Below, in pieces: positions 25,914 through 42,450 of a stretch of 64,000 nt of DNA; position 1 is the first letter of the stretch; each line of letters opens with the position of its first letter. This stretch comes from Deferribacteraceae bacterium V6Fe1 (GTDB lineage Bacteria; Chrysiogenota; Deferribacteres; Deferribacterales; Deferrivibrionaceae). The stretch covers positions 186,001-250,000 of the forward strand of contig CP063375.1 of assembly GCA_022813675.1 (NCBI GenBank), in the 5' to 3' direction. The notes below the pieces were generated by a model. That model made no database searches. It was not told where the DNA came from and saw nothing but the letters and a program-made list of their open reading frames with translations. The translations under genes were made by a program, and so were the position numbers.

Positions 25914-26064
25914 CCTGACTTTGACACTTTCAATTAAAAAAAATCAATAAAAGTGGCAAGAAGCCAGTAAATACAGGGGTGTTAATTTCTGTGCTCCATA
26001 TTTTGTAGTGGCAACTTATTGATAGATAATATGTTTTATATTGATGTTTTTATGCATTTTTTTC

Positions 26065-26094
26065 TTGACATATTTACTACTTTTGTAGTATATA
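26065..26094 (+). promoter_or_regulatory. Transposase promoter
   Basis: TTGACA, an 18-base spacer, TATATA, followed after five bases by the ATG of the transposase. A start at the usual distance would yield a leaderless mRNA. Confidence 0.6.
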
Positions 26095-26099
26095 TAGCC

Positions 26100-27739
26100 A
26101 TGTACTTGAAAAAAACTCGCTCTAAACAATATACTTACCTGCAAGTTGTAGAATCATATAGAGACGACAATGGTGTCCCAAGACATAAAGTACTATTTAA
26201 TTTAGGCAGATTAGATATCCTAAAAAAAGACCCATCTTTTGCCACTGTAATAGATAAAATAAGAGAAGAGATTTCTGAATCTACTAAACCTGAGTTTAAA
26301 GATATATCTGATGCTGATATAGTGAATTGGGGCTATAAGATATATGAGAAGCTCTGGAAGATGTTTGAGCTGGATAAGACACTTGATGATATACAGAAAA
26401 ACAGTAAAGCCAGGTTTGATTTACAATCGAGTTGTTTCCGTATGGTAATAGAGCACTTATTAGAGCCTAAGAGTAAGCTTGGAGTTTATGCAAATCAGAA
26501 TAGGTATTACAATATTCCTGAAGTAGAGCTTCATCATTTTATAGAAGCCTTGATATATTGTCAGAACATAAGGAGCTTTTAGAGGATAAATTATTTTATA
26601 AAAATTTTAGCGTATTTAATTTAAAAGTAGATATAGTTTTTTATGATGTAACGACCTTTTATTTTGAGAGTGTCAGGTCAGATAGTTTAAGAGAATTTGG
26701 CTTTAGTAAAGATGGTAAGTTTAATGAGGTACAGATTGTATTTGGTTTACTTGTTGATATGGAAGGTCGTCCTATTGGTTATGAACTATTTCCTGGGAAT
26801 ACTTTTGAGGGTAAGACCCTTGAGAAGGCATTATTTAAATTAAATGAACGATTTAATTTAAATAAAGTTATAATAGTTGCAGATAGGGGCTTAAACAGTA
26901 AGATTAATTTAAAGCTGATAAAAGATAATGGATTTGATTATATAGTTGCAAGCAGACTAAAGAGTTTGCCATCAGATATTCAATCCGAGATATTTATGGA
27001 TGAAGGTTACAATTTTATAAAATCGGATGAAGAGGATATTTTTAAATATAAGAGTATAGATTACAAGAATAAAGTTTCTTTGGGTAATGGTTCTGTAGCT
27101 GTTTTGGATGAGAAGTTAATAGTAACATATTCTTCTAAAAGGAGTAAGAAGGATAAAGCAGACAGGCAAAGACTTATAGACAAGGCTAATCATTTGCTTG
27201 AAAATGAATCATTGATAAAATCCTCTTTTAAGAGAGGTGGCAAGAAGTTTTTAAAGGAAGAATCCTCAAACAAAGAAAAATGTTATAAACTTGATGAGGC
27301 TGCGATTGAGAAGGATGAGCGCTTTGATGGATATTATGGTATACAGACAAGTGAAACGAATTTATCTGAGATAGATGTAATAGATGCATATCACAATTTG
27401 TGGAAGATAGAAGAATCTTTTAGAATAATGAAGAGTAAATTAGAGGTACGTCCGATATTTCATTGGACGGAGAAGCGTATTAAAGGGCACTTTGTAGTTT
27501 GCTTTTTAGCATTTTTACTTGAGAGGACATTGGAACATAAGCTTAGAACGGCTGATATAAAAGCATCATCGAGAGATGTAAGAAGTACAATTAACTCTAT
27601 GAATTTTGCAAGATTTGAATCTAAGGGTCAGACTTATCTGCTTAAAACTAAATTTGGCAGTTTGGGCAGTCATATATTAAGAGCACTTAGAATCCCACCG
27701 CCTAAGAATCTTTCCACCCCTGATGAGTTGAAATTTTAA
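26100..27739 (+). pseudogene. IS1634-family transposase, frameshifted
   Basis: The N-terminal part (MYLKKTRSKQYTYLQVVES) runs to a stop at 26582, and the rest continues in another frame (SLDILSEHKELLEDK) to 27739. The switch lies at a run of four T near 26525-26545; one extra T there would give a continuous protein (HHFYRSLDILSEHKE) of about 547 residues. The DDE domain is otherwise complete: VFYDVTTFYF, IVADRGLNSK and the late Glu in WKIEESFRI. No canonical slippery heptamer is present, so a deletion is favoured over programmed frameshifting. The protein must act at the two inverted repeats. Confidence 0.85.
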
Positions 27740-40223: not shown

Positions 40224-40487
40224 TTATTTAGACAGGGCTTCTACAATATCGTTTACAGTTACATCCAAAGGTATTTCAATCAATTTATCCCGACTGTGCT
40301 CACCCATCAATATGTTGACGGCACTCTTCTTCAAGTTAAGTTTTTTAGAAATAAATTTTATTAATTCTTTATTGGCGGCACCGTCTACCGGAGGGGCACT
40401 CAACTTGATTTTTATGATATCTGAATCGTAAAATCCCACACACTCAGTCTTTTTTGCAGAAGGCTGTATATGAAGCTTAATTCTCAT
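40224..40487 (-). CDS. DUF167 (YggU) family protein
   Basis: 87 residues from the ATG at 40487, which overlaps the end of the ATPase gene. The family motifs IHIQPSAKKTE-like start, IKIKLSAPPVDGAANKELI and INILMGEHSRDKLIEI are present. The molecular role of this conserved small cytoplasmic protein is not established. It is co-transcribed with the MinD-like fusion gene. Confidence 0.88.
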   Translation of the reverse strand: MRIKLHIQPSAKKTECVGFYDSDIIKIKLSAPPVDGAANKELIKFISKKLNLKKSAVNILMGEHSRDKLIEIPLDVTVNDIVEALSK

Positions 40488-42414
40488 CAGGATACGTGAC
40501 AATACCGGAGTCTTTGTAGTAAGCACTGTTTAATAAAAGCGACTCCAAAGAGCCTTTTATTTTAACATCAGAAATTAATACCCCTTCATTCACAAAAAAC
40601 TCCCCCTCATTTAAATTTAACAGCACATATAGGGATTCATATGGGTCATACTCCTGATAAACGGCATTTATTATATTCCCATCACTAATCATTATCTGTC
40701 CCGAATCGTTATTGGTAAGTATTTCAATAGTTAAATCTTTTTTCATCCCACACAAAAACTGCACTAACTCATGGATATCAATATTACTGACATCACCGGA
40801 GAAATTATTATCACTTAAAATATTTTCACTCTCACCAAGTATACTTTTATATACGTTGACAAAATTTTCTATCCTTTTATAGAATATTTTTGCCAAATCC
40901 ACAAATTCAAGTCCGTATCTGTTATTATCCCTTATATTTTTAATTTTTGACTTTACATTCTCTATTTTCTTGCCGTTAGGTAAAGTAAAACTGATTATTA
41001 TGGCATCATTCATATCAAGGGGATAACTTGTCTCAAGCAACGTACCATTCACACTTAAATCGTGTAAAACACCCGGGAATGTTTTAATGTTTTTGTAATT
41101 TACACTGCAAGCTATATTTACTGGGACACGTTTACTGCCGCGCAAAGAGTACTCCGTATAATCCTGAGGATAACTGATTAAAATTAACGATGAGTTTGGC
41201 TCTATACCTTTTATCAAGCCTGTTTCAAACTCAATAAGTTTGTCCTGAAAAAGATATCTTGCAGTAACTCTTTCATAATACTCAAATAGCTTCAAGATTT
41301 CACGTCTTGACTCAACTATAATGTACTGCCCCAAGCTCCAGCCTATAATATTTGTACCGTAAAATCTTTTTTTATCTTCCACTAAAATAAGTTCCGTACC
41401 TACAGCAAACTGCCTGAAGATATTCCCCTTTACAAACTCACTCGACCTTTTCCTCAAATAAAGCTTAAGGGTCTTATAAAGCCCGTTTATATCCTCCAAC
41501 ATCTTGCTCATAGTCTTTTCCATCTGAACGATGAAATAAGGATCATCAACCATAGGCTCTACTTCCTGAGCGGTCGGCTTTACTTCTTGTTCACTTTCCA
41601 AAAGTGATTTTTCTTCTATAAATTGCTCAAAAAAATCTGCGATATCGTTCTTTGGGACAGTATTTTTTGCTATAACATCTGCATAATACCGAAAAAACCT
41701 TGTAGTTTGAGAGTTAGGATAAAGTTGAACAATCGGAATCTGTCTATTAACCGACTCAGTAAAATTTTCATCATCAGGAAGCGGTCCCAAAAGATTGACC
41801 TTTATATCCAAAAACTTTTCAACAGTCTCCTTAAACTTATCAAATACATTATGTGTCTGCACTTTAGATTTGGCTTTATTCACCAGCACATCTATATTTT
41901 TATTTATATTCTTACTTTTTAATACTTTTAACATCCCATAAGCATCTTTAATAGAAGTAACTTCCGGGACAATTATCAAAATCACAGTATCAGCAAGCTT
42001 TATAAAACTAACAACTTCATCAGATACACCAGCGCCCGTATCGATAATAAGAAAATCTGCCCTTTCTTTAAGCTTTGCTATTTCACCGAGGATTTTACTT
42101 TTATTTTTACTGCTGAGGTTAGCTAATTTTGACACACCTTTCCCCGCAGGGATAATGGAAAAGTTTGGCAGTTCCTTTTTTTTCAACAATATATCTTCAA
42201 TGGTAACATCTTCATCCAGTAGGTTTTCAATGGTTTTTCCAGGGACTTCGCCGAATAAAAGGTCTGCATTTCCAAGGGCTAAATCGGCATCCAACAAAAA
42301 TGTATTATATCCATCTTTGGCAAGGCAAACACTAAGATTTATACAAAAATTGCTTTTTCCAACCCCTCCCTTACCGCTTGTAACAGCTAATACTTTACAA
42401 TTTTTACTTTTCAT
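40477..42414 (-). CDS. MinD/FlhG-like ATPase fused to YcgR/PilZ and DUF4388-like domains
   Basis: 645 residues from the ATG at 42414. Domains in order: MinD/FlhG-type ATPase (about 1-255) with deviant Walker A KGGVGKS at 15-21, DADLALGNAD and the FLIIDTGAGVS Walker B region; a linker with a possible coiled coil (about 290-326); a YcgR N-terminal-like domain (about 336-421); a PilZ domain (about 422-530) with both c-di-GMP motifs, R425xxxR429 and DLSVNG at 452-457; and a DUF4388/PATAN-like domain (about 541-631) containing MISDGNIINAVYQ and LNEGEFFVNEG. It lacks the MinD C-terminal amphipathic helix. A role in placing or braking surface organelles under c-di-GMP is inferred from the parts. No flagellar gene is nearby. 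Confidence 0.85.
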   Translation of the reverse strand: MKSKNCKVLAVTSGKGGVGKSNFCINLSVCLAKDGYNTFLLDADLALGNADLLFGEVPGKTIENLLDEDVTIEDILLKKKELPNFSIIPAGKGVSKLANLSSKNKSKILGEIAKLKERADFLIIDTGAGVSDEVVSFIKLADTVILIIVPEVTSIKDAYGMLKVLKSKNINKNIDVLVNKAKSKVQTHNVFDKFKETVEKFLDIKVNLLGPLPDDENFTESVNRQIPIVQLYPNSQTTRFFRYYADVIAKNTVPKNDIADFFEQFIEEKSLLESEQEVKPTAQEVEPMVDDPYFIVQMEKTMSKMLEDINGLYKTLKLYLRKRSSEFVKGNIFRQFAVGTELILVEDKKRFYGTNIIGWSLGQYIIVESRREILKLFEYYERVTARYLFQDKLIEFETGLIKGIEPNSSLILISYPQDYTEYSLRGSKRVPVNIACSVNYKNIKTFPGVLHDLSVNGTLLETSYPLDMNDAIIISFTLPNGKKIENVKSKIKNIRDNNRYGLEFVDLAKIFYKRIENFVNVYKSILGESENILSDNNFSGDVSNIDIHELVQFLCGMKKDLTIEILTNNDSGQIMISDGNIINAVYQEYDPYESLYVLLNLNEGEFFVNEGVLISDVKIKGSLESLLLNSAYYKDSGIVTYPDEN

Positions 42415-42420
42415 AATAGA

Positions 42421-42450
42421 ATTATAGCCTATTTTTACCAATGTTGTAAA
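42421..42450 (-). promoter_or_regulatory. Promoter of the MinD-PilZ fusion gene (leaderless)
   Basis: On the minus strand TTTACA, an 18-base spacer, TATAAT, then six bases to the ATG. No Shine-Dalgarno is present, so the transcript probably starts at or next to the start codon. Confidence 0.65.

Follow-up and report, generated by a model that had tools for sequence, protein, structure and literature searches.

A MinD/FlhG-type ATPase in one chain with a YcgR-PilZ c-di-GMP receptor and a DUF4388-like domain in Deferribacterota, a candidate link between c-di-GMP and cellular positioning

The gene examined here lies within a 64,000-nucleotide stretch of contig CP063375.1 of Deferribacteraceae bacterium V6Fe1 (hereafter the window). 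In the open reading frame reading of the 64-kb window, its ATG is at position 42414 and its stop codon at 40477-40479. The features of the gene and its product are as follows, in window coordinates or in residues of the fusion protein.

42421..42450, minus strand: promoter-like TTTACA-18-TATAAT just 5' of the ATG, conserved in the relatives G012 and G013
40477..42414, minus strand: fusion gene, 645 amino acids, encoding a MinD/FlhG-type ATPase, a YcgR N domain, a PilZ domain and DUF4388
41665..42414, minus strand: ATPase domain, residues 1-250 (Pfam; best fold match FleN/FlhG)
Residues 13-21: deviant Walker A motif of the ATPase, SGKGGVGKS
Residues 42-53: Walker A' region of the ATPase, DADLALGNADLL
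Residues 125-129: Walker B motif of the ATPase, DTGAG
41617..41649, minus strand: acidic amphipathic helix (DIADFFEQFIE region), residues 256-266, net charge -4, at the position of the membrane-targeting helix of FlhG
41434..41541, minus strand: long helix predicted by the structure models, residues 292-327, linking ATPase to receptor
41155..41409, minus strand: YcgR-type N domain (PilZNR), residues about 336-420 (family scan and fold match)
40840..41154, minus strand: PilZ domain, residues 421-525 (Pfam and fold match)
Residues 425-429 and 452-457: c-di-GMP motifs of the PilZ domain, RGSKR (RxxxR) and DLSVNG (DxSxxG)
40510..40800, minus strand: DUF4388 (PATAN-like) domain, residues 539-635 (Pfam), in a compact form

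The promoter-like element abuts the ATG, which suggests that the message may be leaderless. Similar promoter spacing before the ATG was seen in G010 (L046) and in the pel-operon copy of G009 (L041), and the type I copies of family f2 have a G-rich stretch 5' of the ATG. Elsewhere in the window, two overlapping open reading frames on the plus strand (26019-27739), in different frames, look like a single frameshift-split transposase.

The original prediction from the sequence was of a four-part protein comprising a positioning ATPase, a YcgR N domain, a PilZ domain with both binding motifs intact, and a DUF4388-like module. Pfam profiles and the predicted fold bore out this architecture, and alignment confirmed that both PilZ motifs are intact in the window protein. 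The ParA (3.6e-18), PilZ (1.1e-9) and DUF4388 (8e-11; 42.5 bits vs a gathering score of 25) profiles all matched the window protein above their curated cut-offs, at residues 6-246 (ParA/CbiA/AAA_31), 425-519 and 539-635, and all three matched 10 of 10 homologues scanned singly. The PilZNR match to the window protein alone (residues 346-416) was sub-threshold at 0.08, but nine of the 10 homologues scanned singly were matched, the best at 1.9e-5; the YcgR N domain is thus identified through these homologues and through its fold, and not through the window protein alone. The DUF4388 match in the fusion spans 97 residues vs about 150 in the genome's other DUF4388 proteins, and neither the length of this match nor the predicted model holds an alpha-helical insert. 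The original description of the PATAN domain reportedly names such an insertion. No description of the whole architecture was found in the literature searched, of which coverage was partial, in agreement with the original prediction, which did not recognize it as a described system.

AlphaFold2 models were built from the family alignment, and their folds were compared with the PDB by Foldseek. The full-length model had a pLDDT of 75 and a pTM of 0.43, too low for the relative placement of the domains to be read from it; the model of the C-terminal half had a pLDDT of 80 and a pTM of 0.53. The ATPase half was closest to FleN/FlhG (5j1j, 8e-20; 4rz2, 5e-19), with FleQ-FleN complexes also among its best structural matches. 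The C-terminal half matched c-di-GMP-bound VCA0042 (2rde, 9.5e-11), E. coli YcgR (5y6f, 1.3e-8) and MotI/DgrA (5vx6), while a phmmer search of this half against PDB sequences returned nothing convincing. Collectively, profiles and predicted folds indicate that the protein is an ATPase of FleN/FlhG fold, a YcgR/VCA0042-type c-di-GMP receptor and a putative PATAN-like adaptor in one chain.

The protein had been taken for a fusion of FlhG with YcgR. On this reading it would be a second FlhG, through which c-di-GMP would exert direct control over the position or number of flagella or over motor speed. FleN and FlhG are the nearest solved folds of the ATPase, most functionally characterized YcgR-N/PilZ proteins act as flagellar brakes (5y6f and 5vx6 were matched here), and all nine genomes that carry the fusion also have a short FlhG-type match. 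However, the window's genome already encodes a canonical FlhG of 286 amino acids, with the start MEKLMADQAQQLRKIAW and the motif DQAQQLR, directly beside FlhF, and the candidacy of the fusion as the genome's own FlhG was rejected on this ground. The locus, with genes named by eye, reads flhA, flhF, flhG, fliA, cheB, fliM, fliN, cheY, on to cheA, and the flhA-flhF-flhG-fliA run is arranged identically in G006 and G010. The window's genome likewise encodes a stand-alone protein of YcgR type (223 amino acids, C1:2179710-2180381), and its flagellar/chemotaxis cluster ends with a gene for a PilZ protein.

The fusion also differs from FlhG in its sequence elements. A review ascribes the stimulation of FlhF to DQAxxLR and describes the C-terminal membrane-targeting sequence of FlhG as its lipid anchor (PMC12826062). 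The DQAxxLR enhancer helix was absent from the fusions and present in the short FlhG proteins of the phylum that were read. The window fusion has no cationic membrane-targeting helix, the equivalent helix being the acidic DIADFFEQFIE; this helix was acidic in most fusion copies (net -5 to -1) and neutral in one, the best helix segment differing in one copy, while six of the seven FlhG C-termini tested carried +1 to +2. Among the loci read, the fusion never lay beside flhF or in a flagellar operon, and many FlhG-bearing relatives (families f5 and f7) are without it. In an IQ-TREE tree of ATPase domains with weak deep branches and some long outgroups, the fusion ATPases formed one clade (93/90) and the FlhG proteins of the phylum another (100/99); with the same weakness of deep branches and length of outgroups, this tree does not support an origin of the fusion as a recent duplicate of the phylum's FlhG. 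Judged by its sequence, the fusion is distinct from the protein that ordinarily positions the cell's flagellum, and its service as a second FlhG is rather unlikely. Of the original prediction, the direct coupling of c-di-GMP to a positioning ATPase stands by profile and fold, whereas the FlhG-YcgR fusion for flagella and the control of flagellar placement or number do not.

Through its C terminus, the protein could instead act on type IV pili, with the PATAN-like end binding a PilB-type motor and the ATPase localizing that motor at high c-di-GMP. PATAN response regulators act on cyanobacterial type IV pili, PixE being reported to bind PilB1 (PMC7690835), and two PATAN proteins are among the candidate SgmX partners in Myxococcus (PMC11580455). 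All fusion carriers have several copies of PilB/PilT-type ATPases; however, T2SSE ATPases occur in 50 of the 51 genomes, which renders this co-occurrence uninformative. Further, the DUF4388 of the fusion is without the helical insert and ranks among its most diverged domains (21-33% identity across families), no pilus operon adjoins the gene, and family f4 has DUF4388 and pilus-type ATPases without the fusion. We consider a dedicated type IV pilus function unlikely.

Several genes bearing on pili or on DUF4388 were observed at other loci. Just past the fusion in the G013 relative, and convergent with it, lies a type IV pilin-like gene (L006 10254-10739, minus strand; MKKGFTLIELIIVIVIIG) that is not there in the window. 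L094 (G000:C1:1994885-1997293) encodes an 802-amino-acid protein with DUF4388 and a J-domain-like stretch, and L095 (G000:C1:1697352-1698386) a 344-amino-acid DUF4388 protein with a probable membrane segment that adjoins a response regulator. The pilus-type ATPase of L096 (G000:C1:1886449-1888143) starts with an MshEN-like stretch, as read by eye, and pili here may therefore also respond to c-di-GMP.

Other families of MinD-like ATPases were compared with the fusion. It scored 127.9 bits against NCBIfam minD_bact and 43.5 bits against BcsQ, below the respective cut-offs of 212.9 and 157.85. MinC_C exceeded its cut-off in no genome of the order and in a single genome overall, which belongs to another class of the phylum. 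With no MinC over cut-off in the order and the MinD cut-off unreached, a MinD of the MinCDE system was rejected; since MinC was not found over cut-off in the order, the fusion is not a MinCDE component. BcsQ, a polar MinD-like protein, is indispensable for cellulose secretion and interacts with the PilZ module of BcsA (PMC5727187), and on its sequence score the fusion is not a BcsQ. Transcriptional co-regulation in the manner of FleQ-FleN, in which the ATPase would bind an NtrC-type activator and c-di-GMP would modulate the pair, is consistent with the presence of FleN and FleQ-FleN complexes among the best structural matches. However, no activator is linked to the gene, and the c-di-GMP site lies in the ATPase chain and not in an activator, so that such a role is quite improbable.

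Within the 51 genomes of the phylum, 11 full-length homologues of the fusion were found in nine genomes from three Deferribacterota families: three genomes of f1, all of the window's genus (G000 included), two of f3 and four of f2. Two copies each are present in G008 and G009, both of f2; contig ends truncate the G007 copy and one of the two in G008. A pattern scan of genome contigs found one relative only (L006, a Deferribacteraceae MAG), apparently the same contig as G013:C6. The remaining families of the phylum have a short FlhG-type protein only, or less. Comparison of G000 with G012 gave a dN/dS of 0.03 for the whole fusion, 0.01 in YcgR-N and PilZ, and 0.06 in DUF4388. RxxxR was kept in 10 of 10 aligned members, and DxSxxG was intact in seven of the 10 (the window protein and six others), the three f2 "type I" copies having DxNxxG. 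This substitution of Asn for Ser is common to all three type I copies (L040, L042 and L045), whereas Ser is retained in the pel-linked type II copies; a split of function after duplication is a possible explanation of the difference. With the same domain order in 11 copies from three families, no internal stops and a dN/dS this low, a chance fusion or annotation artefact can be dismissed. The fusion is a real, strongly conserved combination of domains that is apparently undescribed.

Outside the phylum, a whole-protein profile found no full-length fusion in 334 sampled genomes, and no C-terminal half spanning YcgR-N, PilZ and DUF4388 was found in these genomes. Seven MinD-like proteins from outside the phylum, picked for long open frames or high score, had no such tail by eye, and among 72,556 plasmid records there was no match covering most of the query. 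These sequence searches suggest that the fusion is restricted to Deferribacterota, a conclusion that is provisional because the outside sample is thin, at about one or two genomes per family.

The genomic context of the fusion differed among families. Outside the pel run of G009, which was scanned with Pfam, gene names at these loci were read from sequence. In f1 and f3 the fusion lies between a divergent argC and a downstream DUF167-like gene (named by eye), a neighborhood that says nothing on function. The second copy of G009 starts an operon-like run of overlapping or adjacent genes: the fusion, a lipoprotein 18 bases on, PelD, a PelE-like protein, PelF, PelG and GH114. Three of these matched Pfam (PelD_GGDEF, 2.3e-7; PelF as DUF3492, 4e-80; PelG, 2.3e-131). 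By position, the lipoprotein is PelC-like and the membrane protein after PelD is PelE-like, and the 907-amino-acid GH114 protein is read from its sequence as PelA-like. In G008 the run opens likewise with the fusion, a lipoprotein and a PelD-like protein before the contig ends. PelD, which is required for exopolysaccharide, acts as a c-di-GMP receptor (PMC2170427).

Only three of the phylum's 51 genomes had PelF and PelG matches (G000, G013 and G009), and all three are fusion carriers; the chance of drawing three carriers when nine of 51 genomes carry the fusion is about 0.004, a weak figure that ignores kinship. The exopolysaccharide-operon position is confined to one copy in G009 and G008, two genomes of a single genus, and is not found in f1, f3 or the f2 type I copies. 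The pel genes lie at a locus distant from the fusion in G000 and G013, and neither PelF nor PelG was matched in four near-complete carriers (G006, G010, G011 and G012). Thus, pel is not the sole or ancestral client of the fusion and, as far as gene content indicates, would be a client in one lineage at most and not a general explanation.

The reading that we favor, at slightly short of an even chance, is that the fusion is a MinD/FlhG-family paralogue, a positioning ATPase that c-di-GMP controls directly and whose candidate client is a matrix- or pilus-type surface machine and not the flagellar FlhF switch. The ligand is probably made in the host, since the window's genome has 15 GGDEF matches. 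Binding of c-di-GMP at the YcgR-N/PilZ junction would gate the ATP-driven dimerization and localization of the ATPase half, altering the ATP-dependent dimer or its partners. The DUF4388 end and the acidic linker helix would dock onto the client at the membrane, and the surface machine would be placed or licensed when c-di-GMP is high. Within the f2 lineage, one copy has come to head a pel exopolysaccharide operon. ATPases of the ParA/MinD type that share a cell usually have one dedicated cargo each (PMC10241942). More broadly, we tentatively propose, at somewhat less than an even chance, a class of ParA/MinD positioning ATPases in which the spatial cycle is switched directly by c-di-GMP via the covalently attached YcgR-PilZ receptor and duplicates serve different surface machines, one of them captured by pel.

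ParA/MinD ATPases determine where bacterial structures form, and c-di-GMP governs the choice between swimming and sticking. To our knowledge, c-di-GMP and positioning ATPases meet in known systems via separate proteins, as in FleQ-FleN or in BcsQ with BcsA and BcsE. A single chain that holds both would tie the second messenger directly and testably to cellular positioning, with a specific candidate client offered by the copy in the pel operon. Each domain is already known; the combination, among positioning ATPases of the ParA/MinD family, is what appears to be new.

Compared with FlhG/FleN, the fusion shares the ATPase fold, about 33% identity over 250 residues, the deviant Walker A and the DTGAG Walker B, but it lacks DQAxxLR, has an acidic and not a cationic helix after the ATPase, does not lie with flhF, carries the additional YcgR-N, PilZ and DUF4388 domains, and shares its genome with a true FlhG. 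It resembles YcgR, VCA0042 and MotI/DgrA in the order PilZNR then PilZ, in predicted fold and in the RxxxR and DxSxxG motifs; however, its receptor sits behind a MinD-type ATPase and is followed by DUF4388, and a stand-alone YcgR-type protein is also present. With the PATAN-CheY regulators PixE and PixG it has in common a PatA-N/DUF4388-type domain, a presumed docking module, but it has no receiver domain, and its compact DUF4388 has no alpha-helical insertion. BcsQ with the PilZ domain of BcsA likewise joins a MinD-like ATPase to a PilZ c-di-GMP sensor in exopolysaccharide secretion, and one fusion copy heads a pel operon; in contrast, the fusion scores below the BcsQ cut-off, its PilZ domain is in cis and not in the synthase, no bcs genes are involved, and most copies lie outside exopolysaccharide operons. 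By analogy with E. coli BcsQ, which works in trans with the BcsA PilZ domain, the fusion may perform this task in cis, such that a secretion complex is placed and licensed only at high c-di-GMP.
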